In this document: positions 9,520 through 45,321 of the stretch, piece after piece
Layout of the letters: the number at the start of each line of letters is the position of its first letter
Numbering within the stretch: position 1 is the first letter of the stretch
Source of the DNA: a candidate division FCPU426 bacterium
GTDB lineage: Bacteria; Oederibacteriota; Muellerivitia; Muellerivitales; Muellerivitaceae
Assembly (NCBI GenBank): GCA_003152075.1
Contig: PLZG01000098.1
Span: 124,001-188,000 of the forward strand
Direction: 5' to 3'
Length of the DNA stretch: 64,000 nucleotides
Position numbers and translations under genes: made by a program
Notes under the pieces: generated by a model
The model's input: only the letters and a program-made list of their open reading frames with translations
The model's database searches: none
What the model was told of the DNA's origin: nothing

Positions 9520-9523
9520 AAAT

Positions 9524-10462: not shown

Positions 10463-12598
10463 TCAAGGAACTTTGCTTTTCTCCCAGGAAACCACCTGTT
10501 GGATTTCGTATTTCAGGAAGGGGTTTTCAGGGTTTTGGCTCAAGGCTTTCTCAAACATCCCTCTTGCCTCAGGGTATTTTCCCTCGGTCGCCAAAAGTCT
10601 TCCGAATTTCTCGCACAACACATAGTCTTGGCAGCTTTTTTCAAAGGAATCCTGGAATAACTTTGAAAATTTTTGCCAATTTGTCCCCGAATCCTCAGGG
10701 TGGAAGGATCTTTCCCAGGAATAATTGAATACTAACTTCTCGAAAAAAACAGACTGTAAAAATGGATCATCGGGGACAGCAGGATAGAAGTCTTCCATGT
10801 CTTTAAGAATTTTGGTCCTGGGGGTGCCGTTGGGGGTGTCCACGATTTCAAAGTCGATCCTTTGATAGGCCGAATAAAAATCCACCCATGCAGTGAAATC
10901 CCCGATCATGGAGGGCTGAATAGGAATCAAAGCCGTCCTATAACGGCTTGGGAAGCCCTTGGCATCTAATACTGGCGTTAACCATTTGCTTTGGGGAAAC
11001 CGTTTTGAAAGAAAGAAGGCGTAATGGTCACTTGTAAAAACAGCCGCCCATTTCAATCTTTCTAGTGGAAGGGGATGGTGAAAGATCGCGTTAAAGGGGT
11101 AAGTGAAATAAAGCAAGCCGTAACTGTCGTGGCTGTCGGGGACAAATTCCGAGAAGATCAAACCCGGTCCGGTTTGGGAGGAAAGCGACTTAAGCGCTTG
11201 ATAGCATTGTTGTTCCTCGGTAGGACGGGAATCCCCCGGCGGAAAGAGAAAACGTTGGAGGTCGACCCCGGCTGATAACAATAAAACTAAGGTCAAGACG
11301 GGAATTCTTTTGGAAGGCGTCAGGCGTAAAACCATGGAATGGATCCCCAAGGCGGTGATGGCCAATAAAAGGGGAAGGGCTAAAAGAATTCGGTGGAATT
11401 CGGTGCCGACGGACAAAAAGCCGGGTAGCAACGAAAGGACAAAGGCAAAAGCGAGGATTTTGCAAAGGGCATACCGGCGAAACCTGTAAAGTTCGATGGC
11501 CCCCAAGAAAAAAAACGAGCTTAAAAGGAAGTTTAAAAATCCGCCCCTGGTTTGAATCGACCCATGGCTTGAACGGTCATCCCAGAATAGGGCCGATATA
11601 TAATTTCCCACCGCCTCGAGTTGATCTCCCCAGGTGGGGATGTTTCTCCAGGCGGAAACTGCCAGGATGTGGCCACCATAACCTTCTTTTTGGACGGCGA
11701 TAAGGAAGGGAAGCATGGCGAGCAAAGAGGATAAAATAAAACATAAAACAGGCAAAAGGCCCTTGGGTTTTTTATTTAGAAAGATTCCGGTTACGACGAG
11801 AAACGTTAATAAATATAAAACCGGCCATGAAAAAAAAGTATAGGGCCCTAAACCAACGCAAAAACCCAAAGCACCAGACCAGATTAATGTGGATCGTTTA
11901 TCCGGGGCTTTCCATAAACGGGCGAGGAAGTAAAGGACCCCGCATTCCCAAAGCGGCATGAGCACACCCGGCAGTAGGGGTCTGGAGATTAACAGGGCCC
12001 AATAGCCAAAGCCTAGGAGAAAAAAAAGGATGAACGACAAGGATTGGGAGAAATAATGCCGGGCCGCGGCCCATCCAACCGCCACCGTCAAGGCAGAGAT
12101 CAAGATAGGCGGGAATTGGATAGCCAATAGGGGAGAGTTGAAAATTTTTAAGAACAGCCAGCACAAATAACTTAAGGTGCTCGGGTCCTGGCCCAGGGTG
12201 ACGAAAAATCTTAACTCCCATCGCTGAAGCCACTCGACGGCGTAAAGGGCCATCAGCGTGTCGTCCCCGCTGAGCCAAATTTTATCGTTTCCGAGTTTCC
12301 AAGAGCGGACCAGGAGCGCCAAAATCCCCAGAAACACCCAAAGCCAGCCGGGCGGGGAGGCATCGGCTTCCCATTCATAAATGGGCTTTTCCCCGGAAGG
12401 CGCGGCGGGGGCCGCAAAGCAAGCGAACCAGAAAACCAGGAACAGCAAAAGAATGACCCAAAATTTTTCTTGAAGGGAGAGCGGGACGTAAGTCAAAAGA
12501 AAGTTCAAGAAAACAAAGATTAATAAATAAATTAAGGGATTGTTTTTACCGGAAAGTCCCCTGGGATGGGTGACCGGGGTCAGCAAGCTCGGAGCCAC
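10463..12598 (-). CDS. GT-C glycosyltransferase-like membrane protein with C-terminal TPR (family copy 1)
   Basis: 711 aa from GTG 12598. One of eight paralogues in this window. About a dozen hydrophobic segments fill residues 20-450, followed by a soluble domain and a TPR-like end (EGKYPEARGMFEKAL). The first outer loop after the second helix reads RSWKLGNDKIWLSGDDT, with an acidic pair (Asp112-Asp113) where PMT/ArnT-type GT-C enzymes have their catalytic acids. A later GTEFHR matches the ExxR motif shared by all copies. By analogy it may move a sugar from a polyprenyl-phosphate donor on the outer face of the inner membrane; donor and acceptor are unknown. It is the most diverged copy. Its start overlaps the end of the small helical-bundle gene by 19 bases, suggesting coupling. 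Confidence 0.7.
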   Translation of the reverse strand: MAPSLLTPVTHPRGLSGKNNPLIYLLIFVFLNFLLTYVPLSLQEKFWVILLLFLVFWFACFAAPAAPSGEKPIYEWEADASPPGWLWVFLGILALLVRSWKLGNDKIWLSGDDTLMALYAVEWLQRWELRFFVTLGQDPSTLSYLCWLFLKIFNSPLLAIQFPPILISALTVAVGWAAARHYFSQSLSFILFFLLGFGYWALLISRPLLPGVLMPLWECGVLYFLARLWKAPDKRSTLIWSGALGFCVGLGPYTFFSWPVLYLLTFLVVTGIFLNKKPKGLLPVLCFILSSLLAMLPFLIAVQKEGYGGHILAVSAWRNIPTWGDQLEAVGNYISALFWDDRSSHGSIQTRGGFLNFLLSSFFFLGAIELYRFRRYALCKILAFAFVLSLLPGFLSVGTEFHRILLALPLLLAITALGIHSMVLRLTPSKRIPVLTLVLLLSAGVDLQRFLFPPGDSRPTEEQQCYQALKSLSSQTGPGLIFSEFVPDSHDSYGLLYFTYPFNAIFHHPLPLERLKWAAVFTSDHYAFFLSKRFPQSKWLTPVLDAKGFPSRYRTALIPIQPSMIGDFTAWVDFYSAYQRIDFEIVDTPNGTPRTKILKDMEDFYPAVPDDPFLQSVFFEKLVFNYSWERSFHPEDSGTNWQKFSKLFQDSFEKSCQDYVLCEKFGRLLATEGKYPEARGMFEKALSQNPENPFLKYEIQQVVSWEKSKVP

Positions 12599-12933
12599 TC
12601 TTCCAATTGCTTGCCAATGGAGTTCAGCCTTTTAACCCAACGGTCATGGAGCTCTTTCGAAAGCAGCGCCTTTCTCAAGCAGAGGTTCATCAAGGGCGGG
12701 CACTCGTGCACCAGTGAATTGGCTTCCTTCAAATGCTTTTGGGTGTTGAGGGCGCTGTGGGAGTCCTGGGCCTTTTGGACCTCCTGGGACAGGGCATGTA
12801 TCTGACGTTTCAAGCGGGCGACAGCCTCGTTCTTCAGGGCCCAAGGCAGGTGCTGGTAGGTCTTATTGATCTCACCGGCCAAGTCGTCGCATTGGGCCGC
12901 GAGGTTAACTTGCAAGAAATCCGAGGAAGCCAT
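12580..12933 (-). CDS. Small helical protein, four-helix-bundle (23S IVP/Avd-like)
   Basis: 117 aa, rich in Leu, Lys, Glu and Gln, with predicted long helices throughout. The pattern LPWALKNEAVARLKRQIHAL followed by a run of small/polar helix and a final KRLNSIGKQLEEWL resembles the four-helix-bundle family that includes 23S intervening-sequence proteins and the Avd accessory protein of diversity-generating retroelements. No reverse transcriptase or variable repeat is nearby, so an Avd role is not supported. AAGGA lies 8 bases before ATG 12933. It is sandwiched between two large GT-C/TPR genes, 9 bases after one and overlapping the next by 19. Function unknown; the family match is by eye and tentative. 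Confidence 0.6.
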   Translation of the reverse strand: MASSDFLQVNLAAQCDDLAGEINKTYQHLPWALKNEAVARLKRQIHALSQEVQKAQDSHSALNTQKHLKEANSLVHECPPLMNLCLRKALLSKELHDRWVKRLNSIGKQLEEWLRAC

Positions 12934-12942
12934 GCCGATTCC

Positions 12943-15054
12943 TTATTGAAGGTATTGAGCTGAGTTCGTCAAATTAAGCGGGGCCTTCAAGGCCATTTGA
13001 AAAGCCTTCTTCGCCTCGGGTTCATTGTGGCTCAAAAGTTCGAGAAATCCCAGGTGGTTATAGAGGTGGGCGGAAGGATACCCCCTGGACAACGCCTGTC
13101 GCAAGGATTGAATGGCTAGGTCAAGCATTTGCTTCCCTGATCTGTCTTCGGGCGCCGTTCGAGCCAGTAAAAAGCTTTCTTTTAAGTATAAATCTGAAAT
13201 TTTTTCCCCGAGACAGGAAATTAAAAAGGGGTCTTTTTCAAAAGAGAATTGGGCCTGGTTTAAATCGGAAAGAATCTCCGAATAAGATTGTCCGCCGGTA
13301 AGGGATAAATACCGGTCGATGGCGGGATTTAAAGATCGATCCGCTTGCCACCAGCCCCGGAAAATTTCTCGGTTGTCTGGCTTTATCGCGACTATCCACA
13401 ACATCCACCCCCCGTCCGAGGGGTTTAAATCGGAAGAAAGCGCGAATGCCTCACCCGGCCCGAAACGACCCTCCAGAAAAGGCCTATAGTTCACGTTGGT
13501 TAACAGGGCTACCCACCGGGCATTCTCGAAAGCCAGATTGGGATTTTCAACGGTGTTAAAAGAGTAGGTGGCAATGGATAGGCTTTGGTCGTAAAAACCC
13601 GACATGAAATTGGAAAATACCAAGCCTGGGCCATCCTCGTTCGCCCTTTTAACCAAGTGACCATAGGCCCGATATCGATCAATGGATTTGGAATAGCCTT
13701 TCCAATTATCCGTGGAATCCCAAAGGTTGTGGTAACGGATACTTAAATGGTAAAAATCCAAAGAGAAGGAAATGGACAGGAAAAGGACAAGGAGAATGGT
13801 CCGATAGGGAATGGATTTTTCCTCCAAGAGCCGTTGGAATCCCACCGCTGAAATGACCAAGAGGATGGGCAAGACAGTGAGAATCCGAAGGGGCTCACAT
13901 TCCTTGGTCAAAAGTCCCGGTAAGAAGGAAAACAGCAAGGCGAACCCCAGCCAACGGTTCAAGGGATTTTTCAAATTTCCCCCCATCACCAAAAGCCCCA
14001 CGAAGAAGATCGAACTCATTATTGGATTCATTTCCCCGCCGAAAACCGGTTGAAAGGTATAGGCCTTGGGATCCAATCCCCAAAATAGCGATGAAATATA
14101 AGAAAGGGATATCCGGGCCTGTTCACTGGGGGGAATGGGTTGGTGGAAAGCCCATAGGTGCTTAAAAGAAAGCCCTGAGTTTCCCCCGATGGCGGCCCAA
14201 ATAAGCGGGAGAAGGAAAAGGCCGCAGGGGACCAGGAAACGCCCTAAATTTTTTAAAGACTTCGGGACCCAAAGAACCACCAGGGTTAAAAGGACCAGGG
14301 GCGCGAAAGCGATCCAATGAAGGCCGGTGTAAAAGCCCAGTCCGGTGGCGCCGCCTAAAATCCATGTCCACTTTCCTTGCTGGGGAAGGCCGCGAGCGTT
14401 AACGCATTTACCGAGCAGGAATAAGACCACGCATTCCCAGAAAAGGACCAATATGGCCATCAGGGAGAATCGTCCCATGAACAGGGCCCAGAAACCAAAA
14501 GCCATTCCGAATGTCACCAGAAAGGAAAAGGATTTTGAGAAAAACTGGCGGGCCGCCCCGTAAGTGAAGGGAAGGGTCAAGGCCGAAAGAAGCGCGGGGA
14601 AAAACCAAAGGGTTCCGAGAGAAACCCCGAAACACTTGAAAAAAAGTCCCAGGCCCCAAAGGTAGGCCGGGGGACTCTGGCTACCCTCGTAAAACATCCG
14701 TGAGTCCCACTTTTGGGAAAGGCTCATTCCGTAATAACCGGTGGTAGCCTCGTCATAGTGGGGCCAGACGGTCAGCGTTGTGAGATGGTAAAAACGAACC
14801 ACAATGGCCAGAAATCCAAAGCCCACCCAAACCCAAATAGGGGGACTTGGAAAAGACTCAACCAGGAAAGGGGGTTTGGAGGAGAGAGGGGTGGTCAGGA
14901 GCACCACCAGGAAGGGTAAGGCCAAACCGAATAAACCCACCCAAAGTTTTGTTTCCAAGCCCCAAGAGGCATAGGAGAGCCCAAAGTTCGCGGCGAGGAA
15001 AAAACTTAAATAAAGGGGCAATGGAATGATCATCAAAGAAGTCTTTGACTTCAT
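12943..15054 (-). CDS. GT-C glycosyltransferase-like membrane protein with C-terminal TPR (family copy 2)
   Basis: 703 aa. The reading frame extends to 15159, but ATG 15054 is chosen: it forms an ATGA overlap with the stop of the upstream copy and has AAGGA 6 bases upstream. Hydrophobic helices span about residues 12-450. The first outer loop has RFYHLTTLTVWPHYDEATTG with Asp101-Glu102, the acidic pair expected for GT-C enzymes. The ExxR motif is in KECEPLRIL. The soluble C-terminal half contains AYGHLVKRAN and VATYSF-like family blocks, then a TPR unit (HLYNHLGFLELLSHNEPEAKKAFQMAL, key residues LG, A, A). Likely inner-membrane, with the C-terminal part outside the cytoplasm. Confidence 0.75.
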   Translation of the reverse strand: MKSKTSLMIIPLPLYLSFFLAANFGLSYASWGLETKLWVGLFGLALPFLVVLLTTPLSSKPPFLVESFPSPPIWVWVGFGFLAIVVRFYHLTTLTVWPHYDEATTGYYGMSLSQKWDSRMFYEGSQSPPAYLWGLGLFFKCFGVSLGTLWFFPALLSALTLPFTYGAARQFFSKSFSFLVTFGMAFGFWALFMGRFSLMAILVLFWECVVLFLLGKCVNARGLPQQGKWTWILGGATGLGFYTGLHWIAFAPLVLLTLVVLWVPKSLKNLGRFLVPCGLFLLPLIWAAIGGNSGLSFKHLWAFHQPIPPSEQARISLSYISSLFWGLDPKAYTFQPVFGGEMNPIMSSIFFVGLLVMGGNLKNPLNRWLGFALLFSFLPGLLTKECEPLRILTVLPILLVISAVGFQRLLEEKSIPYRTILLVLFLSISFSLDFYHLSIRYHNLWDSTDNWKGYSKSIDRYRAYGHLVKRANEDGPGLVFSNFMSGFYDQSLSIATYSFNTVENPNLAFENARWVALLTNVNYRPFLEGRFGPGEAFALSSDLNPSDGGWMLWIVAIKPDNREIFRGWWQADRSLNPAIDRYLSLTGGQSYSEILSDLNQAQFSFEKDPFLISCLGEKISDLYLKESFLLARTAPEDRSGKQMLDLAIQSLRQALSRGYPSAHLYNHLGFLELLSHNEPEAKKAFQMALKAPLNLTNSAQYLQ

Positions 15055-17147
15055 GGAAGTTCCTTTAAGAGTTGGCTGGAATTGGTCAAGTCCAGCGGGG
15101 CCCTTTGGGCGCGTTGAAAGGCTTGGCGAGCCTCGGACCAATGATGGTCCATCCACCAATAGGTTCCTAAGGCATGGAACAAATGGGCGGAGGGATAACC
15201 TAACTTTAATCCCTGCTGAACGGCTTGGATGGAGGCGGAGTGATCAGGGGCGGGCACTTTCAGTTCATTATCGGCCATTTTCTCCCAAAAGCAGGATTCC
15301 AAAAAGGGATCGTCCTTGAAATGGGGATAGGCGGCGGCTAATTGGTCCAACACCGGCTTAAAAGATTCCCCGGCGGCGTAGGAAAGGCATTGGTCGATGA
15401 AGGGCTTTAGTGACTTGGTGGCTTCCTCCCAATGCTCCAATGTTTCCCGACGGCCTGTCGTGGGCATCATCCAAAGCATGAACCCCCCGTTGGGTCGGGT
15501 GGGCTCCTTGGAAAGGAAATAAGCCTCACCGTCGGGAAAACGCTTGGCCAGAAAGGGTTTATAGCCCGCGTTCACGACCACAGCCGACCAGGAAGCCTTA
15601 TCCACAGCAACAATGGGATTTTCCGCAGCGTTAAAACCATAAACCGCGATGGGCAAGGTCTCATCACAAAATCCCGGCACAAAATCCGAAAAGACCAGGC
15701 CGGGGCCCGAAGTTTTCGTTTTTTTCTCCAGGATTTGATAGGCATTAAAACTTTCCACTGATTTTAAATAGGGATGCCAAAGGGTTGGGGTTTGGCAGAT
15801 TTGTTGATAGGGGCCCGCTAAGTGATAGAAATCTAGTCCAAAGGAAATAAGCAACATAGCGCCCGCCAAAATCGCAGCCCGATGGGGTTTGAAGAAAGCT
15901 AAGAGCTCCCTTAAGGCCAGCAGACAAAAAAGAGGGATGATCAAAATCGCGGGAACCATGCGGAAAGGTTCCATGGATTTAGTCAGGAGAGCGGGAGCGA
16001 GAGTAAGAAAGAACGCCGCCAAAAGCCATTGATTTAATGCCGAGGAACGCTTTTGAATCGCGAGAATGAAACCCAGGAAAAAAAGCGCTCCTAGAATAGG
16101 ATTAAAAAAGCCACCCCAAACAGGACGGTAGGAATGAACGGAATCCTCTAATCCCCAAAAGAGTTCTGATAAATAAGAGAGAGAGACCCGGATTTGATCC
16201 ATCAGCGGCATTCTTTCCGAAAAAGCCCAGAGGGAACCTAGGTAATGACCGAAACCTTCCTTGGCCGCGCCCACTGCTAAAGGCGCCACCATTACCAGGC
16301 TGGCCAAGAGAAAGGAGGCTAAGTGGGATTTTTTCCCCTGTTGAAAAGAGAAAACCAAAACCGCAAGACCTATCGCGGCCGCGACGGGAGCCCAAGAAAG
16401 ATAGGTATAAAAGCCCGCCCCGGTAACCAAGCCGAGAACCAAACTCCACTTTTGCTTTTGTTTTTTGGGAGCTTTTAAAAATATTCCGAGGATGAATAGG
16501 GTTAAACATCCCCAGGCGGGGACGAGAACCGGGTGAACCGAGTATCTGGCCAAATAAACCGGCCAAAAACCCGTGGCCATCAGGAAAGCCGCCAGAAAAG
16601 AAAGGGACCTCGAAAAAAACCTCCGGGCCGCCCAATAGCTTAAGGGAACGGTCGCCAGGGAAACCAAAGCGGGAAAAAGCCAGAGAGTTGTCAAGGAAGG
16701 GCCGAATAACCGGAAAAGCAGGTTCATGCCCCAAACGTAACCCCGGGGAGCCTCGCTACTACCATAAAAAAGCCCTCCGGTCCATTTTTGGAAGAGTTCT
16801 AGCGCCACATAGCCATTGACCCCTTCCTCATAACCCGGCCAGACGGATAAAGTGCTAAGTTTGTAGAAACGCGTAAAAACCGCAAGCGTTCCGACCAGGA
16901 ACCAAATTCCCGGTGGAATTGGCGGGAGAAAGTTATCCTGGGTCGGACTTTTAGGATCGCTCGGCCTGAGAAAGATCAAAGCGATTAGGCCCGGTAGCAA
17001 TATTCCCGCCAGGATGATCCATAACCGGAATTCCAGGGAGAAATGTCCAAAGGAAATAAGGGTGTTGGAAACAAGGAAAGTGAGAAAAAATCCCCAGTTA
17101 TTTATTTTCAAGAAGGGAAAAGATCCGCGGCCCAATTTTTTTGTCAT
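15051..17147 (-). CDS. GT-C glycosyltransferase-like membrane protein with C-terminal TPR (family copy 3)
   Basis: 698 aa. Start ATG 17147 overlaps the upstream stop as ATGA, and its own stop overlaps the next start the same way, so translation of the run is coupled. The membrane core is residues 20-450. The first outer loop reads RFYKLSTLSVWPGYEEGVNG: the acidic pair is Glu107-Glu108 instead of Asp-Glu, a change that may matter if the pair is catalytic. The ExxR motif lies in KSMEPFRMVP. The C-terminal soluble domain carries the family block YGFNAAENPIVAVDKASW and a TPR end (HLFHALGTYWWMDHHWSEAR). Substrate unknown. Confidence 0.75.
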   Translation of the reverse strand: MTKKLGRGSFPFLKINNWGFFLTFLVSNTLISFGHFSLEFRLWIILAGILLPGLIALIFLRPSDPKSPTQDNFLPPIPPGIWFLVGTLAVFTRFYKLSTLSVWPGYEEGVNGYVALELFQKWTGGLFYGSSEAPRGYVWGMNLLFRLFGPSLTTLWLFPALVSLATVPLSYWAARRFFSRSLSFLAAFLMATGFWPVYLARYSVHPVLVPAWGCLTLFILGIFLKAPKKQKQKWSLVLGLVTGAGFYTYLSWAPVAAAIGLAVLVFSFQQGKKSHLASFLLASLVMVAPLAVGAAKEGFGHYLGSLWAFSERMPLMDQIRVSLSYLSELFWGLEDSVHSYRPVWGGFFNPILGALFFLGFILAIQKRSSALNQWLLAAFFLTLAPALLTKSMEPFRMVPAILIIPLFCLLALRELLAFFKPHRAAILAGAMLLISFGLDFYHLAGPYQQICQTPTLWHPYLKSVESFNAYQILEKKTKTSGPGLVFSDFVPGFCDETLPIAVYGFNAAENPIVAVDKASWSAVVVNAGYKPFLAKRFPDGEAYFLSKEPTRPNGGFMLWMMPTTGRRETLEHWEEATKSLKPFIDQCLSYAAGESFKPVLDQLAAAYPHFKDDPFLESCFWEKMADNELKVPAPDHSASIQAVQQGLKLGYPSAHLFHALGTYWWMDHHWSEARQAFQRAQRAPLDLTNSSQLLKELP

Positions 17148-19258
17148 TGAAGTGGGGTCTTTCTTAAATTATCTAAGGCATTGGTATGGTTCATCGGGGA
17201 GTGAATCGCCGCTTCAAAGGATTCCCGGGCCTTGGCATAGTTTCCCTGAGTGAACCAAAATACACCTAAATCATTATAAAGATGAGCAGCCGGATAACCC
17301 TGGGTAATGGCATGTTTCAAAGCGTTAAGGGCTTCGAATTTGTCGCTATTGGACATGGCGTTGAAGAAAATTCTTTCTTCCAAACAAGACAACAAAAATG
17401 GGTCGGAACCCGCCAAAGGACGGATTTCCAAAAGGTCATCCAAAATGGCGCGGTTGGATTTTCCAAATGCCTGGTTAATAGTGGTGGAAGTGAAGGAGTG
17501 AAGCGCCTGGTTAAAATTTAAGCATGCCTTAAGGAAACTACTGTCTGAAAAAGAACTTGTTGGAAAGATGCCTAAAACTAAGGTTTCCTCAGGGTCCGAA
17601 GGACCAATGGACAGGTCAAACCACTGGGACGAGGGAAAGTGTTTCCCCAAAAAAGGACTATAGTTGATATTTGTCACAAATCCGAACCAGGAAGGCGGAT
17701 TTAACGAGAGTTTGGGGTTTCGTTCGGCGTTAAAGGGGTAGGTTGCCAAGAGCAATATTGGATTGAAGGCCGTTGACTCAAATTCTGTCAAAATTATACC
17801 CGGGCCTTTTTGCAAAGCAGTTTTTTTAATTATTTGATAAGCCTTCCATCGGTCGAGTGATTTGGTGAAGTGGGTTTGATTCGTGACTGAATAACAAGCC
17901 TGGTGGTACGGGCCCAACAGGTGATAAAAATCAAAGCCCGCGGAAACCATCAGTAAGCCCATCAGTACGGCCCATCTTCGGCGAAAAGTAATCCGAAGCA
18001 ATAGGGAAAAAATCCCAAAAACCGAAAGACCAATTAGAAAGGGCAGCTCCAAAATTGCCCGAAACATTTCCACCTCTTGGGTCAACCAAGCCGGCAAAAT
18101 AAACAAAAACAAACAAATTCCCGCGCAAATACTAAAACCCGTCCGACGCCAACGGACTAATTCGACGAACCCTATGAGAGAAAGGGAACCTGTTAAAGGA
18201 TTTAAAAAACCGCCCCAAAATGGTTTATAAGAAAAGCGGGATGATTCAAATCCCCAAAGAAAACCACGAATATAATCCCAACAGATTTTCCATTGTGCTA
18301 ACCAGGAACCATTTTTTTGAAAAGCCCAAAGCATTGAAAGATAGCTTCCCGGTTTTTCGCGGATACCGGCCAATAATAAGGGGGTTGTGATCAGGAGAAT
18401 CGGAAGTAAAAACCATCCCAAAGCTAAAAAACGCTTGGAAGGTTGCCGCGCGATTTTATAACCAACTATGAAAAGAACAACAAGAGCCACCAGCGGCCAT
18501 TGAAGATAGACATAAAATCCGGTTCCCGTAATCAAGCCCAGGTATAAAGCTGTTCGATTTTGTTCCTTGCTGGATTTGGCTTTCAAGAAAAGTCCCGTCA
18601 GAAGAAAAGCCGCCAGTTCCCAAACCAAAAGCAATCCTGTGGGAATACAAAATCTTCCGAGGTAAAAGGGCCAAAAGCCTAAAGCGAAGAGTGAGGCATA
18701 GAGGCACGCGAAAGAACGGCTAAAGAAAATCCATCCCACCCCGAAAGCCACGGGAATCGCGAGAGTGGAAAGGACCGCAGGAAAAGACCAAAGGGTGTCT
18801 AGGGAAGGCCCCATCAGTTTGAAATATCCCCCCAAGAGCCAACAAAAAAGCGGGGGAACTTGTGTGGCACCATAAAAAAAGTGCCAGATACCTTTTTCCG
18901 CCAATTCCAAAGCGTAAAAACCGAACCAAGACTCATCCATTGTGGGTATGCCCGAAAGGCTGGTTAATTTATAAAACCGGATGAAAAGGGCGAGTAAACC
19001 CACACCTATCGCCAAACTCCAGTGAAAAGATGGAAATAGATCTTGGGTGAGGGGAAATTTTTCATTTAATTGAGGTGAAGAAATGGAAACAAAAGCCAAG
19101 CTCAAGGGAAGAAGGAGGCCCAGTATTCCAAGCCATAATTGAGTTTGAAGGGATAAGGAAAAATATGAAAGCAAAAGATTCATGGCGAGAAAAATTAAAA
19201 AATAAACCCAAGGGTTAAACGGCAGGGCGAGGTTAAAGAGATTGGAGCGTTTGGCCAT
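17144..19258 (-). CDS. GT-C glycosyltransferase-like membrane protein with C-terminal TPR (family copy 4, first of the coupled run)
   Basis: 704 aa from ATG 19258 (a GTG lies just before it at 19261). No ribosome site is seen, but TAAAAT sits 8 bases upstream, so the mRNA may begin at the start codon. The first outer loop is RFYKLTSLSGIPTMDESWFG with Asp108-Glu109. The ExxR motif is in QEVEMFRAI. The C-terminal part has TYPFNAERNPKLSLNPPSW and a TPR-like repeat (HLYNDLGVFWFTQGNYAKAR). The next gene starts inside its stop codon (ATGA). It is one of the better conserved family members and is a good reference for aligning the others. Confidence 0.77.
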   Translation of the reverse strand: MAKRSNLFNLALPFNPWVYFLIFLAMNLLLSYFSLSLQTQLWLGILGLLLPLSLAFVSISSPQLNEKFPLTQDLFPSFHWSLAIGVGLLALFIRFYKLTSLSGIPTMDESWFGFYALELAEKGIWHFFYGATQVPPLFCWLLGGYFKLMGPSLDTLWSFPAVLSTLAIPVAFGVGWIFFSRSFACLYASLFALGFWPFYLGRFCIPTGLLLVWELAAFLLTGLFLKAKSSKEQNRTALYLGLITGTGFYVYLQWPLVALVVLFIVGYKIARQPSKRFLALGWFLLPILLITTPLLLAGIREKPGSYLSMLWAFQKNGSWLAQWKICWDYIRGFLWGFESSRFSYKPFWGGFLNPLTGSLSLIGFVELVRWRRTGFSICAGICLFLFILPAWLTQEVEMFRAILELPFLIGLSVFGIFSLLLRITFRRRWAVLMGLLMVSAGFDFYHLLGPYHQACYSVTNQTHFTKSLDRWKAYQIIKKTALQKGPGIILTEFESTAFNPILLLATYPFNAERNPKLSLNPPSWFGFVTNINYSPFLGKHFPSSQWFDLSIGPSDPEETLVLGIFPTSSFSDSSFLKACLNFNQALHSFTSTTINQAFGKSNRAILDDLLEIRPLAGSDPFLLSCLEERIFFNAMSNSDKFEALNALKHAITQGYPAAHLYNDLGVFWFTQGNYAKARESFEAAIHSPMNHTNALDNLRKTPLQ

Positions 19259-19266
19259 CACAAATC

Positions 19267-21586: not shown

Positions 21587-22921
21587 TTAACAAAAGTAAT
21601 CCCTTATTTTTTCCGCGGCACGGTGGCCTGAAACACAAGCCCCCTCAATCGTTGCGGGTAGGCCGGTGTCCGTCCAATCCCCGGCCAGAAAAATGTTAGG
21701 AAAGGGTGTTTCACAGGGAAGGCGAAACCTGTCGGTCTCCCGGTTCCAAATAAAGGTCGCGGCCATTTCCCGCGTGACCTTGGCGTGAAAGACCCTGGCC
21801 TGACTGGCGGCGGGACAGCGTTCTTGAAGCTCGGACATCGCCAAGGCTACCAGTTCCTTCTCGGTTTTTTTAGCCAAAGCGTCCGCCGCGCTGGCGGTGA
21901 AACTTAAATATTGGGATTGTCCTTCGCCCTTCCAGCCCCAATTGGCATTTCGATTGAAGACCCACTCGAATTTAGCCCCCGCAAGGCCGAAAAAATGATC
22001 CTCCATAACGGTTTGAGAAAGGAGGATGTGAACTGAAAGGATGGGGGACTTGCCCAATTGGGGAAGTTTCTCGATCGCGGTCCAGGTGTCTTTCGGCCAA
22101 AGGGCTGAAAGGGAACTGGGCGGAACGGCCCAAATGAGGGCGTCCCCGGAATATTTTTTCCCGGAACGGGTGGTAAGCTCAAAAGTTTTGGAATCGGCCT
22201 GGAAAGCCTGGACCCCCTCATGAAAATGAACCTTTCCCCCTTTGCTATCTATAAAAGAAGGCACCTGGTCAAAGCCCATTTCGCTTAAGGGTTTTGTCGC
22301 GATCCCGAAGGCGCTGTCCCGGCGGGTTCCAAAGAAAATCCGGTTCAACACTTCCCCCAAGCCCCGGATGGGCGCGGTTTCGACCGGAACGTTCATGACG
22401 GAATCGCAAAGGGGAATCCAGAATCTCTCCCGGGCCAAGGGGCCCTGGCGGGTAGCGTCCAGGAAGTGGGCCACGGTTTCTAGGGAGGAGTTGATCTTGA
22501 ATGGCTTTCGGGAAAAAGCGGTTAGGGCTTTCACCATTGAGATTTTCTCCCCAAAAGTGAAGGCGTTGGAGAAAAACAAACCAGCGACCAAGTGAAGAGG
22601 CGCCGGAAGGGGAGCGCAACGAAGGGTAACTTTTTTGCCTTCTTTGGTGAACCAGGAAAGCCTCAAGGGGTCAATCCAGTGAAAGGGGTCGGGGACCTCC
22701 AAGCGCTGGAAAAGTCTCAAAGTTTCCCGGTAACAGCCCATTAAAAGGTGGGGTCCGTTGTCGACAGGAGCGGGAAAATTATCAGTAGCTATAGTGGAAT
22801 AAACTCGGCCACCCAAGGTTCCCCGGGATTCCAGTAACTCAACTTGAAAACCCTTCTCGGCCAAGGCCGTGGCTGCCGCAACGCCCGCGAATCCCCCACC
22901 CACCACAATGACCTTACTCAT
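21587..22921 (-). CDS. hpnE: Hydroxysqualene dehydroxylase (HpnE), FAD-dependent
   Basis: 444 aa flavoprotein of the amine-oxidase/desaturase fold. The N-terminal dinucleotide motif is VIVVGGGFAGVAAATALAEK, followed by LLESRGTLGGRVYS (residues 5-45). The C-terminal FAD-contact block is NIFLAGDWTDTGLPATIEGA, typical of carotenoid desaturase-like enzymes. Identification as HpnE rests on this fold plus its place directly after hpnC and hpnD. It would reduce hydroxysqualene to squalene. ATG 22921 is preferred; GAGGTGG lies upstream, and a TTG at 22930 is too close to it. A 143-base gap separates it from hpnD. Confidence 0.87.
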   Translation of the reverse strand: MSKVIVVGGGFAGVAAATALAEKGFQVELLESRGTLGGRVYSTIATDNFPAPVDNGPHLLMGCYRETLRLFQRLEVPDPFHWIDPLRLSWFTKEGKKVTLRCAPLPAPLHLVAGLFFSNAFTFGEKISMVKALTAFSRKPFKINSSLETVAHFLDATRQGPLARERFWIPLCDSVMNVPVETAPIRGLGEVLNRIFFGTRRDSAFGIATKPLSEMGFDQVPSFIDSKGGKVHFHEGVQAFQADSKTFELTTRSGKKYSGDALIWAVPPSSLSALWPKDTWTAIEKLPQLGKSPILSVHILLSQTVMEDHFFGLAGAKFEWVFNRNANWGWKGEGQSQYLSFTASAADALAKKTEKELVALAMSELQERCPAASQARVFHAKVTREMAATFIWNRETDRFRLPCETPFPNIFLAGDWTDTGLPATIEGACVSGHRAAEKIRDYFC

Positions 22922-35739: not shown

Positions 35740-37023
35740 ATGAAAAAATTCGACGCGCTGGTGATTGGCGGCGGCCCCGGGGGTTACACCACAGCCCTTT
35801 TGCTTTCCCAACAGGGGAAATCGGTCGCCCTTTTCGAGAAAAAAAAGATCGGCGGGTCCTGCCTGCACGTGGGCTGTATTCCTACCAAACTGCTCCAATC
35901 GGCCGCCTCCCGCTATTACGCCCTGGTGAAGGAAGGGAAAGCCTGGGGAATCGAAGTGGATAACGTTCGATTCAACTTTCAGACCCTGGTTGATCGGACC
36001 CAAAAGACCGTTTCGATTTTAGAAAAGGGAATCCAATCCTCCCTTGCCACCGGTGGTGTTGAGGTGATTCATGGGGAGGCGGAGGTCAAGGGACCCAATC
36101 TGGTCCAGAGCGGCGGTGAGGAATATCAGGGGGAGAATTTGATCTTGGCCCTGGGTTCCCGGCCCCGGCACTTGCCCGCTTTTCCCGTGAGCGGAAACAT
36201 TGTTACCAGCGACGAGCTTTTAACTCAGCCTCGCTTGCCTAAGTCGCTTTTAATTGTCGGGGCGGGTGTCATCGGCTTGGAGTTCGCCTGCCTTTACGCC
36301 CAATTGGGAGTGAAGGTGCGGATGGGAGACGTCCTGCCCCGGCTTCTTCCCAACATGGACGAGGAACTTGGGCAGATGATGTTGAATTCAGTTCGCCGAT
36401 TGGGAGTAGAAGTAGAGCTGGGCTTATTGGAGGTGAAGGCCAAAGGCGAGGAACTGATTTTGGTATCGGCGGGGCGGATGCCCAACTCGGACCAGGCCGG
36501 GGTTGGGAATTTAAAGGTGAAAACACCAGGTGGAAAAATTGAGACGGATGAATTTCTCCAAACTCAGGCGAAGGGGGTCTTCGCCATTGGGGACCTGACG
36601 GGAAAGTATCCCTATGCCCACACCGCTTATGAGCACGCGCGGGTCGTTGCGGGCCGGATCAAGGGCGGAGCCGAGCCCATGAACGATTTCAAGGTGCCCC
36701 ATGTGGTATTTACCTCACCCGAGATGGCGGCGGTAGGGTACACCGAGGCCGAGGCGAAGGAAAAATTCAAGAACGTGAAAGTCATCAAGCGCAACTTTGC
36801 GGCCAACAGTAAGGCCCGGATTTTGGGTGAAATCCAAGGTTGGGCGAAAATGGTAGCTGATGGGGATTCGGGCCGGATTTTGGGAGTTCATTTGGCAGGC
36901 CCCGAGGCCACCGACCTTATCGGCGAAGCCTGCGTGCTGGTATCCCAAGGGCTAACCTTGGATAACTTGGAAAAGGTGATCCATCCCCATCCAACATTGA
37001 ATGAAATCTTCGAAAATCATTAA
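35740..37023 (+). CDS. lpdA: Dihydrolipoyl dehydrogenase (shortened form)
   Basis: 427 aa flavoprotein that reoxidises dihydrolipoyl groups with NAD+; the L protein of the glycine cleavage system or of 2-oxoacid complexes. FAD motif VIGGGPGGYTTALLL; redox disulfide Cys41/Cys46 in GGSCLHVGCIPTK; NAD motif LIVGAGVIGLEFACLYAQLG; second FAD motif GVFAIGDLT; catalytic His in HPHPTLNE at the C-terminus. It is about 40 residues shorter than the common 465-475. The gap is in the NAD domain between GVEVELGLLEV and ELILVSAGRMPN, where a beta hairpin is normally present. AAGGG lies upstream of the ATG. No pyruvate dehydrogenase genes are nearby; gcvTHP at 48557-53080 is the likely partner. Confidence 0.93.
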   Translation: MKKFDALVIGGGPGGYTTALLLSQQGKSVALFEKKKIGGSCLHVGCIPTKLLQSAASRYYALVKEGKAWGIEVDNVRFNFQTLVDRTQKTVSILEKGIQSSLATGGVEVIHGEAEVKGPNLVQSGGEEYQGENLILALGSRPRHLPAFPVSGNIVTSDELLTQPRLPKSLLIVGAGVIGLEFACLYAQLGVKVRMGDVLPRLLPNMDEELGQMMLNSVRRLGVEVELGLLEVKAKGEELILVSAGRMPNSDQAGVGNLKVKTPGGKIETDEFLQTQAKGVFAIGDLTGKYPYAHTAYEHARVVAGRIKGGAEPMNDFKVPHVVFTSPEMAAVGYTEAEAKEKFKNVKVIKRNFAANSKARILGEIQGWAKMVADGDSGRILGVHLAGPEATDLIGEACVLVSQGLTLDNLEKVIHPHPTLNEIFENH

Positions 37024-38769: not shown

Positions 38770-40842
38770 TTAAAAAGCCTTCATTGAGAGCGATTGAGCT
38801 TTTTCAAAATTTTTATCCGCTTCCTCTCCTTGATTCATGATTTTCAAACAAACTCCGAGATTATAATACAATTGAGCTGCTGGAATGCCTTGGCTAATTG
38901 CGTTCTGATAGGCTTCAGACGCCTGAACGACATGAGCATCCAGAAATTTGAAGAAGCCCATCTTTTCCCAATAAACCGCCGTTAAAAAACGGTCTCCCTT
39001 TGATTGATTACCCAAGGAAGAAAAAGATTCCAAGAAACCGGCCCAGGTTTCGACAGTCGTTTTATTTTTGATTTCAAAGTCAATTTCCCTGTAGATATGA
39101 TCGGTTTGTATCCATTGGTCCAGTCTTGCTGGTGGAATTTGGGAGGTTGGAATCATAAAAATTCCAAAAGGCTTAGAATCGGCAGGCCCGATTCTATCCG
39201 TTTTAAGAAGCTTAAACCGCAAGCCCGGAAAATTCTGGATAAGATAGGGAGCATACTGAAAATTAACGATGACAACGGCCCATTGGGGATGGGATGCGGA
39301 TAGCGCAGGATTTTGAACCGCATCAAAAGGATAACAAGCCACATTCAGGGTTTTATTATCGTAATCGTTATTGAACTCAGAAAAAACATAAAAGGGGCCA
39401 GACTGCCGGTAGAGAGTTTTCAGAATTTGATAAACGTGATGGTATCCCACGTTTCGCCATTGCCGCCCGGCTGGGACGAGGCTGATGTCGCAATAATGGC
39501 TGATATAGTTGTGAACATCCAGAAAGAAGGAGGCGGCCACTAAAAATAATATTCCCGCTGTATGCAATAAACGGGGACGATAGGCCATTAACCCATGGGC
39601 TCCTATCGCTGCCAGGAGTGTTAGAAGGGGAAGGGTTAGTAGAATTCGGTAGAGTTCGACATTGCTTGTCAGAAGTCCCGGGAGCGCGGCCAGGAACAAA
39701 CAGGCCATGAATGTGCCAAGAAGGCGTCGGGAAAGTTCTCGCAGCAGAAAAATGATTCCTAAGAAGATCAGGGAGTCCAGGATTGGATTAAAAAAACCGC
39801 CCCAGTTGGAACCGAAAGGAAAACTGAAAAATCCGTTCCAAAAAACGCCGGTTCCGTAGAGAGCGAAAGACTTAAAAATCGAAAAGCTGAAGACTTCACG
39901 AATATGAGTTGTTCCTCCTCCCGATAACCGCGCTATCAGGAGGGGCAAGATAAGGAGGAATGTCGTCCCGCAAAAAATAAAAAAATGTTTTTTATCCCCT
40001 TTTTTTTCCAAAAAAATTTGCAACGCCAGAATCAAGGTAAGGCCAAGCCAAATCCCCGCCCAGATTGTCCAAATGTAGAAACCCGCTCCCGACAAGAGGA
40101 TCAAGGCCGTCAGGCTCCTCCACTTCACCATGGAATCCTTGGATTTCAGCCAAAGTCCAAGTAAGCCGAGGCATAAACATTCCAAAAGAGGGGGCCAAAT
40201 GACGGGGATGCAAAGACGCGCCAGAGTGAATTCCCAGAAGGAAAAAGCACAAAGCCAGGCAAAGAGGAAAGCAAGAGACCGGGAGAAATATTGCCGGGCC
40301 GCCCAATAGGCGGCGAAAACCGTGGCGAGAGAAACTAGCGTAGGAAAAAGGCGAAGCGAAAAAAAAGACGGGTCAATCACCTTAAAGTAAAGACCCAAAA
40401 GCCAAAAACCGAGGGGTTCCACCTGTACCTCGGAATACAGTAGTCTCCAGTTCCATTGACGGGCCAATTCCATTCCCAAGAAACCATTGATGCCCTCATC
40501 TGAAATAGGCCAGAAAGGGAGGCTGGTAAGGTGATAGAAGCGGGTCAAAAACAATAACGTGATAAATGGAATCCAAAGCCAGGGTTGGATGAAATCACGG
40601 TTTTCAGCAGAAAAATTGGGGCTATGCTTAAGCTGACTCCGGCGTTCTTTAAAGACGGTTTGGAAACCTATCACGAAAGGTAAAAAGACGCCTAAGACGC
40701 CTATCCAAAGCTTGGAACGAAGAGGCAAGGGCGCATAGGACAGAAGGAGATTGGCGGCAAGAAAGATAAAAAAATAAACCCAAGGATGGAAAGGAATTTG
40801 TCGTTTAAAGCCCAGACCGGATGGTTTTGAATTTAATTTCAT
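38770..40842 (-). CDS. GT-C glycosyltransferase-like membrane protein with C-terminal TPR (family copy 6)
   Basis: 690 aa from ATG 40842. No ribosome site; TGTTAAAAT, an extended -10 type box, ends 10 bases before the start. The N-terminus PFHPWVYFFIFLAAN matches copies 4, 7 and 8. The first outer loop reads RFYHLTSLPFWPISDEGING with Asp115-Glu116. The ExxR motif is in SNVELYRILL. The C-terminal soluble domain has CYPFDAVQNPALSASHPQW and ends in TPR-like repeats (AQLYYNLGVCLKIMNQGEEA). With copies 7 and 8 it forms a second cluster 17 kb from the first. Confidence 0.77.
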   Translation of the reverse strand: MKLNSKPSGLGFKRQIPFHPWVYFFIFLAANLLLSYAPLPLRSKLWIGVLGVFLPFVIGFQTVFKERRSQLKHSPNFSAENRDFIQPWLWIPFITLLFLTRFYHLTSLPFWPISDEGINGFLGMELARQWNWRLLYSEVQVEPLGFWLLGLYFKVIDPSFFSLRLFPTLVSLATVFAAYWAARQYFSRSLAFLFAWLCAFSFWEFTLARLCIPVIWPPLLECLCLGLLGLWLKSKDSMVKWRSLTALILLSGAGFYIWTIWAGIWLGLTLILALQIFLEKKGDKKHFFIFCGTTFLLILPLLIARLSGGGTTHIREVFSFSIFKSFALYGTGVFWNGFFSFPFGSNWGGFFNPILDSLIFLGIIFLLRELSRRLLGTFMACLFLAALPGLLTSNVELYRILLTLPLLTLLAAIGAHGLMAYRPRLLHTAGILFLVAASFFLDVHNYISHYCDISLVPAGRQWRNVGYHHVYQILKTLYRQSGPFYVFSEFNNDYDNKTLNVACYPFDAVQNPALSASHPQWAVVIVNFQYAPYLIQNFPGLRFKLLKTDRIGPADSKPFGIFMIPTSQIPPARLDQWIQTDHIYREIDFEIKNKTTVETWAGFLESFSSLGNQSKGDRFLTAVYWEKMGFFKFLDAHVVQASEAYQNAISQGIPAAQLYYNLGVCLKIMNQGEEADKNFEKAQSLSMKAF

Positions 40843-40914: not shown

Positions 40915-43038
40915 CTATTTTTTGATTTGAGGATAGAGGGTTTCCCCACTCCGTATAAATTCCTTCGAGGCTGTACCCGTCGAATTTTGGAAAGCCCGTT
41001 GGGCTTCCTGATTGCGGCCCAGCAATTTTAATGAAAGTCCTAAGTCATAGTATAGATGTGCCATCGGGTAACCTTTTTGAATAGCCCGTTGGTAGGCAAA
41101 TGCGGCATTTTGGTAATCGCCCGCCACACCCTTAAAGAATGCCACTTTTTCCCAATAAACCCCTTGAAGAAATGGGTCGTCTTGAAATTTATCCTTAAGA
41201 GGGACCATTTGTTTCGTGAATAAGTCCCATGGAAGAATTGGATCCCTATTTCTAATTTTAAAATTGACCTCTTGATAAACATGGTCCGCTTCGATCCAAG
41301 CATGAATGACAGGGGGAGGAATTTCCCGGGTGGGAATGAAAAACAAGCCTAAGGACAAGGGAACATTTTGAGGTAATAGGACATATTCTAGATGGGGGAA
41401 TCTTTTTTGAAGAAATGGGCCTTCATCGCTGGGGATAACCAAGGCGGTCCATTGGGAATCGACACCGGTCAAAGCGAGATTTTGGACGATGTTGAAGGAA
41501 TAGATCGCAGCGTTTATGACTTTGTTTTCATAATCCATATTAAATTCGGTGAAAACATGAAGAGGCCCGGTTTCGGCATTTTTTTGTTCCAGGAACTTAT
41601 ATATCTGAAAATACTTCACCGACCTAAATTGGGATGTAATGGCGGAGGGCAAGGTTTCGTCGCCGCAAAAACGCCAGAAATATTTATAGACGTCCAACGC
41701 CAACAATGTTAAAAGAAGGCACGCGATCCATCTCCAGGAAGGCATTTTGGGAAGGACCGAAGCCAAGCCCCGAATACCCAAGGTGGCTGAGGCTAAAAAA
41801 AAAGGAAAAGCGTGACTCAAGCGGTAAATTTCTAAACTATTACTTAGAATTGCCGGTAGAAGAGAGAATAAAAAGCCTAGGATTGAAAAAATAATCCAAA
41901 AAAAATCAAAAACTTTCAAAAAGTAAAAGAATCCAATCAAGGCTAAAGATCCCAATAAAGGGTTTAAGTATCCCCCCCAGTTAGGGCTAAAAGGAGGGTC
42001 TGGTTTGCTATCCCAGAATAGAACCGATCCATAGCTTGCGCTACTTTCCCAGGGAATAAAACCGTTGAAGTTGGCTTTAATGTGCGACATTCCACTAGGA
42101 GATAGCCGAGCCTGAATCATTGGGTATGTTAAAAGAATGGTCCCCGCCAAAAAGGCCGCCAAAAAAACAATTTTTTTATGGTCGTCATAAGCCTTAGAAA
42201 CCATTATCACCAACAAAAAGAGCCACACAGCGGGCCAGGTGGTACAAGCGTAAAACCCCAGACTTACAGAAAGGCAAAGTAGAAAAAGAAAAGCCCATTG
42301 GGATCGAGGTGATTTTGATTCCAAGAAATGTGCGAATAATCCAAGGCAAAGGAATTGAAGCAATGGAGCCAAGGTTGGCCAAGCCAAAAGACGTGATAGC
42401 GTCATTTCAAAAAAAGAAAAACTGAATAACCAGGTAAAAATAAAAGCCATACTTTTGGTTAAATATTTGCGGCTGGCCCAATAAGCCGCGAGGATGGAAG
42501 CGATGGAAATCAAGGCGGGAATGAGCCGGATAGATAGCAAGGAAGGTGACAGCAGGTACTTGAAAAAAAATGCTGATATCCAAATAAAAAGAGGTTCTAA
42601 CCGGATTTCACTAAAAAGCATATTTTTTATCCAGTCGCGATCTAATCCCATGGCAAGGTTGGCAATTAAATCTTCATCCCCAAAGGGCCAAAAAGGTAAA
42701 GCAGTGAGTTTATAAAATCTAGTAATTAAAATAAGGGAAATAAATAATATCCAAAGCCAAAGGGGTGGATCATTGTAATTTAAATTGGAAAATCCAAACC
42801 TGCCTTTCGGTGTAGTTACAATAGAAGACCTGAACTTTTCCTCTAGAATAATCCAAACCGCGATTGAAAAGGGGGAGACTAAGCCAAGAATTATTAACCA
42901 CAATTGAATTTTTAGTGATAAAGAAAAGTATGAAAGCAAGGTGAGAGAGGTAAGAAAAATACCGAAAAAGACCCAAGGATGGAAAAGAATTGAAAGTTTT
43001 ATAACCGGGGAGGGATGATTTAAAATCTTTTTTTTCAC
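40915..43038 (-). CDS. GT-C glycosyltransferase-like membrane protein with C-terminal TPR (family copy 7)
   Basis: 707 aa from GTG 43038. TGTTAAAAT ends 7 bases before the start and there is no ribosome site. The N-terminus FHPWVFFGIFL is like copies 6 and 8. The first outer loop is RFYKLTALPFWPFGDEDLIA with Asp121-Glu122. The ExxR motif is in NSLEIYRLSH. The C-terminal domain has IYSFNIVQNLALTGVDSQW, and the end is a clear TPR: AYQRAIQKGYPMAHLYYDLG then LSLKLLGRNQEAQRAFQ. Base composition is slightly AT-richer than in copies 1-4. Gaps of 72 and 183 bases to its neighbours suggest each gene of this cluster has its own promoter. Confidence 0.77.
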   Translation of the reverse strand: MKKKILNHPSPVIKLSILFHPWVFFGIFLTSLTLLSYFSLSLKIQLWLIILGLVSPFSIAVWIILEEKFRSSIVTTPKGRFGFSNLNYNDPPLWLWILFISLILITRFYKLTALPFWPFGDEDLIANLAMGLDRDWIKNMLFSEIRLEPLFIWISAFFFKYLLSPSLLSIRLIPALISIASILAAYWASRKYLTKSMAFIFTWLFSFSFFEMTLSRLLAWPTLAPLLQFLCLGLFAHFLESKSPRSQWAFLFLLCLSVSLGFYACTTWPAVWLFLLVIMVSKAYDDHKKIVFLAAFLAGTILLTYPMIQARLSPSGMSHIKANFNGFIPWESSASYGSVLFWDSKPDPPFSPNWGGYLNPLLGSLALIGFFYFLKVFDFFWIIFSILGFLFSLLPAILSNSLEIYRLSHAFPFFLASATLGIRGLASVLPKMPSWRWIACLLLTLLALDVYKYFWRFCGDETLPSAITSQFRSVKYFQIYKFLEQKNAETGPLHVFTEFNMDYENKVINAAIYSFNIVQNLALTGVDSQWTALVIPSDEGPFLQKRFPHLEYVLLPQNVPLSLGLFFIPTREIPPPVIHAWIEADHVYQEVNFKIRNRDPILPWDLFTKQMVPLKDKFQDDPFLQGVYWEKVAFFKGVAGDYQNAAFAYQRAIQKGYPMAHLYYDLGLSLKLLGRNQEAQRAFQNSTGTASKEFIRSGETLYPQIKK

Positions 43039-43221: not shown

Positions 43222-45267
43222 TTAGAAGGCCAGATGGGGCTTGGTTTTCTCCCCTGACAATTCCAACATTCGGCCAAGACAATAATAAAGATGGGGCGTC
43301 GGAACCCCGGTTTGAATGGCTTTTTGATAGGCCCGGGCGGCGCCCCGGTAATCTCCCGCCTCACTTTCAAAAAAAGCTATTTTTTCCCAATAAATACAGG
43401 AAAGAAACGGGTCCTCTTTGAATTGAACTTCAAAGGGCTTGAATTGTTCCGGGAATTGAGCGAACGAACTCAAAGGACTGCGGTTAAATACCTGTCGGTT
43501 AATTTCACGACATGTCTGATCGGTTTGAATCCAAGCCTGAAGCGTCAAGGGGTTAAAATCATCTGGGGGTATCAAATATAAAGCCAAGGATTGAGGCTCA
43601 CCCTTGTCCAATGGTTGTTGTTCGAGGTGAGGAAATTTTTTTTGAAGATAAAGCTGGTAGTCACTGGAGATCAGTAAAGCGGCCCAACTGGAATTTGTCC
43701 TAGAATATCCAAGGTTTTGAAGACGGTCATATGAATAACTTGGTACCGCCAAGGTTTTATTGACGTAATCCAAATTAAATTCAGAAAAAACAAATAGAGG
43801 GCCTGTTTCAGGGATTTTATTCCGAAGTATGTTGTCGATTTGAAAATATTTAACCGATCTCCATTCCTGGGTGGTGGAGGTTAGACGGGGGTCGCAGTAA
43901 CACCACGTGAAATGGTAAAAGCTTAAGAGGCCCGAAAGAACTATTAAACACAGGATCCAACCCCAAGGCTTTATTTTTGGAGGGGAAGAAGCCAAACATT
44001 GAATTCCCCCGGTCGACAAACCCACTAGGTAAAACATGGTTGGAACGATTCGTAGAATTTCTATGTTGTTACTTAAGGCCCCGGGTAGGCAAGAGAGGAA
44101 AAGGGCTCCAAAAAAGCAAAGAAGCACGACCCGGTTTAGTTTCTTTATGGCGAACAAGGCTCCCAACATGGCCAAAGAGCCTGACAGGGAGTCCAGAAAA
44201 CCGCCCCAAACGGGGCCGTATGGGAAACTTCCAAGCCCATCCCAAAAAATCGAAATCCAATAGAGACAAAAAAACTTTGGAAAATCCATTCCGCCGAATT
44301 TTTCCTGGTAATGAGCCATTCCCCCCGGGGAAAGGCGGGCCACAATTAAGGGCAAGATTAAAGCCGCGCTGATCAAGCAAAATGAAAAGAAAAAGATTTT
44401 GTCCGAAGGCTTTTTATGAAACGCATGGATAAAAAAAATCCCTAAGAGGGCGACCCAAACCGTTGCCCAGCCCGGATAAGTATAAAAGCCGATTCCCGAG
44501 GACAGGGACAATCCTATTATGCTGAGCCACTTTGAGTTTGAATGATTCGATTTGAAAAACCAGCCTAGGCAGCCAAAGGCTAAACATAAGAATAGGGGAA
44601 CGAGCGCATGAGGAAGGCAAAAACGGGACAACATCAATCCCCAAAAAGAAAAAGTCAGGAAACAACAAAAAATAAAGGAAAGGGCCCTGGGAAAATATTG
44701 TCTGGCGGCCCAGTAGGCCGTCAGGGAGGTAAATATTGAAATTAAGGCCAAAAAAACCCGGAGGGATAATAGGGACGGCTGGAAAATTTTGAAAAATCCC
44801 CCGAGAAGCCAAATAAAGAGCGGCTCAAGACGATTATGAGACCATAAAAGATCCCAATGCCAATCTCGAATTTGGCCAAGGGCTAAATAAGAAAAAATAC
44901 CCTCGTCGCTGTTGGGCCAGAAGGGAAGATCCGTCAGTTTATAAAATCGAGTGATTCCCAGGGAAAGAACAAAGAAAAACCATAAAACCAGCGGGGGGGC
45001 TCCCCAGGTATGGGATGCAGTTGAAGCCCAATCCCTTTTTGGGCTTGAGGTTTTGCCTGATACTGGGCGCTCTAAGATTGTCCAAAGGGCGATTCCGAAT
45101 GGCAATAATAAGCCGAAAAAGCCTATCCAGAGTTTTACGGTCAGGGATAAAGTGAAATAAGAAATGAGTGTATTTGAAACCAGGAATATTCCGAAATAGG
45201 CCCAAGGGGAGAAGGGAATTGGGTGTATTGGGATTCGAATCGAGGAACCAGGGTTGGCCTTTGGCAT
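43222..45267 (-). CDS. GT-C glycosyltransferase-like membrane protein with C-terminal TPR (family copy 8)
   Basis: 681 aa from ATG 45267. The frame also has an ATG at 45285, but that ATG overlaps the predicted -10 box (ATGTTAAAAT), so it should not be in the mRNA. TAAAAT ends 8 bases before ATG 45267. The first outer loop is RFYKLTDLPFWPNSDEGIFS with Asp121-Glu122. The ExxR motif is in NNIEILRIVP. The C-terminal domain has SYSYDRLQNLGYSRTNSSW and a TPR-like end (AYQKAIQTGVPTPHLYYCLG). It ends slightly earlier than copy 7. It follows prfC by 54 bases on the same strand. Confidence 0.77.
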   Translation of the reverse strand: MPKANPGSSIRIPIHPIPFSPWAYFGIFLVSNTLISYFTLSLTVKLWIGFFGLLLPFGIALWTILERPVSGKTSSPKRDWASTASHTWGAPPLVLWFFFVLSLGITRFYKLTDLPFWPNSDEGIFSYLALGQIRDWHWDLLWSHNRLEPLFIWLLGGFFKIFQPSLLSLRVFLALISIFTSLTAYWAARQYFPRALSFIFCCFLTFSFWGLMLSRFCLPHALVPLFLCLAFGCLGWFFKSNHSNSKWLSIIGLSLSSGIGFYTYPGWATVWVALLGIFFIHAFHKKPSDKIFFFSFCLISAALILPLIVARLSPGGMAHYQEKFGGMDFPKFFCLYWISIFWDGLGSFPYGPVWGGFLDSLSGSLAMLGALFAIKKLNRVVLLCFFGALFLSCLPGALSNNIEILRIVPTMFYLVGLSTGGIQCLASSPPKIKPWGWILCLIVLSGLLSFYHFTWCYCDPRLTSTTQEWRSVKYFQIDNILRNKIPETGPLFVFSEFNLDYVNKTLAVPSYSYDRLQNLGYSRTNSSWAALLISSDYQLYLQKKFPHLEQQPLDKGEPQSLALYLIPPDDFNPLTLQAWIQTDQTCREINRQVFNRSPLSSFAQFPEQFKPFEVQFKEDPFLSCIYWEKIAFFESEAGDYRGAARAYQKAIQTGVPTPHLYYCLGRMLELSGEKTKPHLAF

Positions 45268-45275
45268 TGAAAAAG

Positions 45276-45281
45276 ATTTTA
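45276..45281 (-). promoter_or_regulatory. Predicted extended -10 box (TGT-TAAAAT) for copy 8
   Basis: ATGTTAAAATCTTTTTC on the minus strand, identical over 17 bases to the word before copy 7, ends one base before ATG 45267. It lies in the gap after prfC. Confidence 0.55.
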
Positions 45282-45321
45282 ACATGGGGATTAAATTTTT
45301 ATTTTCTAATCTTAAACTGGC

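Follow-up and report, generated by a model that had tools for sequence, protein, structure and literature searches.

The window analysed here, a stretch of 64,000 nt from an uncultured bacterium of the candidate phylum FCPU426, contains eight homologous full-length open reading frames, all of them on the minus strand and arranged in two clusters (Table 1). The five genes of cluster 1 (10463-21568) overlap or are closely spaced, with ATGA overlaps at 15051-15054 and 17144-17147, and cluster 2 (38770-45285) consists of three genes. The length of copy 2 was counted from an inner ATG, which, as read from the sequence, overlaps the stop of the upstream gene. Compared over the whole length with copy 3, the other copies of the window show 27-41% identity, with E-values of 2e-58 to 1e-156, far beyond chance. 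The first-pass annotation had described eight homologous membrane proteins in two clusters, and the homology, the full-length frames and the identity values bear this out. The motifs it had listed as shared were confirmed in part. All eight copies retain the ExxR motif and the tryptophan at the end of the Y-x-F-[DN] block without change, but the R-F-Y-K/H-L-T..W-P..D-E block of the first loop is degenerate in three, where it reads RSWKLGNDKIWLSGDD (10463-12598), GIPTMDE (17144-19261) and RLWKLTSLSTWPQADD (19424-21568).

Table 1. Features of the 64,000-nt window discussed in the text
Feature	Positions	Strand	Remarks
Family copy 1	10463..12598	-	711 aa; PMT_2 and TPR; most divergent copy of the window
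Family copy 2	12943..15054	-	703 aa counted from inner ATG; longest ORF begins at 15159
Family copy 3	15051..17147	-	698 aa; copy modelled with AlphaFold2
Family copy 4	17144..19261	-	705 aa
Family copy 5	19424..21568	-	714 aa
Family copy 6	38770..40842	-	690 aa
Family copy 7	40915..43038	-	707 aa
Family copy 8	43222..45285	-	687 aa; a start at 45267 gives 681 aa
Acidic pair	16824..16829	-	E107-E108 in copy 3; D-E in most members; from conservation across members and model
ExxR motif	15960..15971	-	E393-R396 in copy 3; outer loop between TM11 and TM12
Alpha/beta outer domain	15348..15758	-	Copy 3 residues 464-600; common to PA14-type sister proteins
TPR hairpins	15060..15308	-	Copy 3 residues 614-696; from profile, Pfam and models
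UvrD/AddA-type helicase-nuclease and cation efflux genes	6292..10453	+	Borders cluster 1; conserved in related genera
hpnE, hpnD-like and hpnC squalene genes	21587..24910	-	Other conserved border of cluster 1
Dihydrolipoamide dehydrogenase-type gene	35740..37023	+	Borders cluster 2; conserved
Peptide chain release factor 3-like gene	45322..46920	-	Other conserved border of cluster 2

No neighbour is common to most copies, which stand among housekeeping genes, and the neighbours that do recur do so because of locus synteny. In agreement with the first reading of the window, no sugar-nucleotide operon was found among the neighbouring genes. The hpnE, hpnD-like and hpnC genes are those leading from farnesyl diphosphate to squalene; the hpnD-like gene scores under the curated HpnD cut-off. 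Between the two clusters lies a tandem duplication (26436-30789), in which 26436-27260 and 28427-29275 encode near-identical secreted proteins, each followed by one of two related beta-barrel-like outer membrane proteins (27284-28360 and 29272-30789).

An AlphaFold2 model of copy 3, based on an alignment of 54 members, had a pLDDT of 92.4 and a pTM of 0.91. When this model was compared with the PDB by Foldseek, the best match was ArnT (5ezm, E = 8e-9), followed by ArnT with undecaprenyl phosphate (5f15, 1.4e-8) and then by AglB, Pmt4, yeast and human STT3, and PglB. Differences in the soluble parts contribute to the moderate TM-scores (about 0.35-0.56) obtained with these solved GT-C enzymes. 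Structure prediction, which might have spoken against the proposed GT-C fold, thus returned it. The curated cut-off of PMT_2 (PF13231) is passed by three of the eight window copies, two more match below it, and 40 of the 54 members match at E ≤ 0.01. Judged by the predicted fold, the eight genes are a GT-C family that had been recognised correctly.

The protein is predicted to span the membrane with 13 helices, two extra N-terminal ones preceding an 11-helix core of the ArnT/PMT type. In the copy 3 model, a juxtamembrane helix within the first large outer loop starts with the acidic pair. Within the 99-member set, the first acid is D or E in all 97 alignable members and the second is kept in 93 of these 97; R396 of the ExxR motif is present in 96 of 99, and R93, R396 and GG345-346 are core residues that are near universal across members. 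The first-pass annotation had placed the acidic pair in an outer loop, and it does fall in the first outer loop according to the model, the side of the membrane being given by positive-inside counts only. Across the 99 members, the computed K/R content per residue is about 0.18 for inner loops versus 0.07 for short outer loops. Since the enrichment falls in the loops assigned to the inside, both the acidic and the ExxR loop come to lie outside, together with the alpha/beta domain and the TPR.

The predicted C-terminal TPR was recovered as well. The models show an array of about two hairpins, Pfam TPR_2 was found in 26 of 54 members, and a profile search against solved TPR proteins supports the assignment. 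A structure search with the tail matched TPR domains at a target-normalised TM-score of up to 0.76, with E-values of 0.014 or above. The small alpha/beta domain alone gave no solved match in a structure search, and a search against viral structures yielded a single weak hit to a protein of a spindle-shaped virus (E = 6e-4).

With copy 3 as the query, 19 full-length copies were found in the bacterium's own genome (4.1 Mb, 114 contigs), 11 of them outside the window, together with more distant GT-Cs. Relatives of the same family carry 20, 16, 16, 15, 8 and at least 4 full-length copies in the fetched regions, counts that are lower bounds given the fragmented assemblies. A search with a single protein for named relatives gave no match, and one with an alignment of four proteins retrieved FCPU426 records. 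When 45 genomes of the phylum were searched, full-length scores came only from the eight genomes of this family; the other phylum members reached at most about 130 bits, with alignments ending near residue 480. In a search of 384 genomes, in which two candidates were scored per genome and which therefore shows presence and not copy number, none of the 376 genomes outside the family had a full-length copy, the best match there being 158 bits over residues 75-460. The set had been suspected to be a lineage-specific expansion, and the copy numbers and the distribution agree with this. Two genomes of family f5 in the same phylum (G011 and G017) have 46 and 28 PMT_2 matches and lack both the TPR family and the Thr-Pro linkers described below; this is a separate GT-C expansion. 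In five genomes, genes of another large GT-C-like family, which to the eye resembles YfhO, recur near the copies (e.g., L056:5911-8145 and L054:18453-20000). Two adjacent paralogous membrane proteins (L063:14131-18036; 636 and 642 aa), which have the block D-L-G-T-x-L-K-x-G-Q-W-I in common, possibly represent a further GT-C-like set.

The next-closest proteins differ in their tail. Nine of ten that were scanned, from the own genome and from other FCPU426 families, carry PA14 at the C-terminus, a domain often tied to carbohydrate binding. These GT-C + PA14 proteins (L020 and L022 in the own genome, L119-L131 in other families) have the GT-C core and the alpha/beta domain in common with the expanded family, and hhalign aligned residues 72-579, including the alpha/beta domain, between the two groups (E = 2.8e-34). 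They end in PA14 where the expanded family has TPR, and they occur phylum-wide in fewer copies, whereas the TPR family is restricted to a single bacterial family. In the tree, the branch between the TPR family and four related GT-Cs of the own genome has 100% support; two of these four were shown to have PA14.

The tree of 99 members depicts an old radiation with deep branches. Genome labels change 67 times on it, versus a mean of 66.5 after shuffling. The labels are thus as mixed as shuffled ones, which indicates that most duplications took place before the genera diverged. The three genes of cluster 2 form one clade, and the five of cluster 1 fall into four others; not every subtype is thus present in both clusters, a point on which the first-pass annotation had asked for a phylogeny. 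For six ortholog pairs from two genomes of one genus, dN/dS was 0.19-0.35. Each of the seven genomes examined has a syntenic locus beside acetolactate synthase-like genes (ilvB side). Cluster 1 is syntenic in five, its 3-9 linked copies being flanked by the helicase/cation-efflux genes on one side and by the squalene genes on the other, and cluster 2 in four, with 1-3 copies. The old tree, purifying selection and synteny across genera together argue for a retained repertoire and not for a mobile burst.

Among the genes away from the copies are those for at least two DPM1-like GT2 proteins, one of which matches the dolichol monophosphate mannose synthase 5mlz (E = 2e-30). A supply of polyprenyl-phosphate sugar from such synthases is plausible. 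Their loci are L157:8921-9664 and L158:6674-8692; one adjoins GDP-mannose-dehydratase-like genes, and the other is followed by a protein (L158:7610-8692) that looks like GtrA by eye but is not recognised by the GtrA model of Pfam. Genome-wide, no match to PF04138, the model for the GtrA flippase, was obtained. Regarding the acceptor, the idea that each enzyme has its own did not find support in the divergence pattern. Mean identity in the 99-member set is 29-36% for the large outer loops and soluble domains versus 22-42% for the membrane helices. The former diverge no faster than the membrane core, and thus nothing singles these regions out.

The genome also contains 631 matches to the pattern TPTxTPTxT, versus 6 in a reversed control; such linkers are absent from the FCPU426 families f4, f5 and f12. 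In the window, a secreted protein (25090-26349) has a long Thr/Pro/Ser-rich linker. Thr-Pro linkers were considered as acceptors but did not find support: across the FCPU426 families, linker and PMT_2 densities are uncorrelated (family means, rho 0.15, p 0.58), the within-family rho is -0.24, and the linker density near the copies (59/Mb) is under the genome mean (154/Mb).

The layout of GT-C, soluble domain and TPR had appeared unfamiliar in the first pass. It has a precedent, however, in human TMTC1-4 and TMEM260, which combine a GT-C with lumenal TPR. TMTC1-4 (CAZy GT105) are eukaryotic cadherin O-mannosyltransferases of this build (PMC7801869, PMC11292533), full-length prokaryotic homologues have been mentioned (PMC7801869), and the TPR of TMTC and of TMEM260 (CAZy GT117) has been proposed to recruit protein substrates (PMC11292533). 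The FCPU426 family resembles TMTC1-4 in its GT-C core, the acidic pair in the first outer loop, the 11 core helices, the extracytoplasmic TPR tail and the presence of several paralogues, among which the TMTC substrates are divided (PMC7801869, PMC11292533). It differs in being bacterial, in its 4-20 copies, in the two extra N-terminal helices, in the alpha/beta domain between membrane part and TPR, and in its shorter tail, with about 2 TPR hairpins where TMTC1-4 have about 10. Neither the TMTC signature DUF1736 nor the TMEM260 domain DUF2723 was matched in Pfam by the eight window copies or the 54 members. The same holds for PF02366 and MIR of the PMT enzymes (GT39), with which the family shares the GT-C fold (Pmt4 being among the top matches), the acidic pair and the PMT_2 match. 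Both the enzyme type and the GT-C + TPR layout are therefore already known, and what is unusual in the FCPU426 family is the copy number, the alpha/beta domain with its short TPR tail, the exchange of PA14 and TPR, and the confinement to one family.

The FCPU426 copies probably attach sugars to molecules outside the cell, and by analogy a mode like that of the protein O-mannosyltransferases TMTC and TMEM260 seems most likely. We assign a probability of roughly 0.55 to the reading that they form a family-wide GT-C repertoire, which transfers sugar from a polyprenyl-phosphate carrier to extracytoplasmic proteins recruited by the TPR. We thereby infer catalysis, the donor, a protein acceptor and a division of labour among the copies. 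The donor would be made in the cytoplasm by the DPM1-type GT2 enzymes, whose genes lie elsewhere in the genome; the acid of the first outer loop would help sugar transfer on the outer face of the membrane; and the TPR would recruit or present the acceptor protein. What speaks against this reading is that acceptor or partner genes are not linked to the copies, that the acceptor-facing domains are no more variable than the rest and that the sister proteins have PA14 in place of TPR. The TPR may also serve assembly rather than substrate choice. A bolder version, which we regard as speculative and rather unlikely, is that a phylum-wide GT-C swapped a sugar-binding PA14 for a protein-binding TPR and so moved from glycan to protein acceptors, giving rise to TMTC-like protein glycosylation by up to about 20 retained isoenzymes, each for one class of surface proteins.

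The PA14 of the sister proteins could also point to glycan acceptors, with the copies adding side sugars to polysaccharides or other glycan chains at the surface. The GT-Cs that recur near the copies in five genomes, called YfhO-like from a reading of the sequence alone, would suit such a decoration of polymers. We nevertheless consider it unlikely, as no polysaccharide operon adjoins the copies and the expanded branch carries TPR and not PA14. A membrane lipid (lipid A-like, hopanoid or other) instead of a protein as acceptor is suggested by ArnT, the aminoarabinose transferase, which is the best solved fold match over about 580 columns and shares the topology and the acidic loop. ArnT acts on lipid A, has no TPR and is normally present in one copy. 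Cluster 1 moreover adjoins the hpnE/hpnD-like/hpnC genes in three genomes, but these stand beside only one of many loci, 19 diverged copies with a TPR tail fit one lipid poorly, and the curated NCBIfam model of the ArnT family matches none of the eight window copies, so that a lipid acceptor is likewise improbable. It is very unlikely that the many copies are receptor- or scaffold-like pseudoenzymes with a non-catalytic or assembly role: the second acid is lost in 4 of 97 members, but the first is universal, R93, R396 and GG345-346 are near universal, and the genes are under purifying selection. A mobile or selfish family, spread by insertion with neutral copy number, is largely refuted by the synteny of the ilvB-side locus (seven genomes), cluster 1 (five) and cluster 2 (four), even though copies sit singly among unrelated genes and the tandem arrays vary in size; the old, deep-branching tree and purifying selection also speak against it.

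For TMTC and TMEM260, a role of the TPR in substrate choice has only been proposed (PMC11292533). With PA14 and TPR exchanged on a shared core, the FCPU426 enzymes offer a natural experiment on the way in which the tail of a GT-C determines its acceptor. At about 2.1 kb each, the 19 copies fill about 1% of the 4.1-Mb genome; thus, extracytoplasmic glycosylation probably matters to these bacteria.
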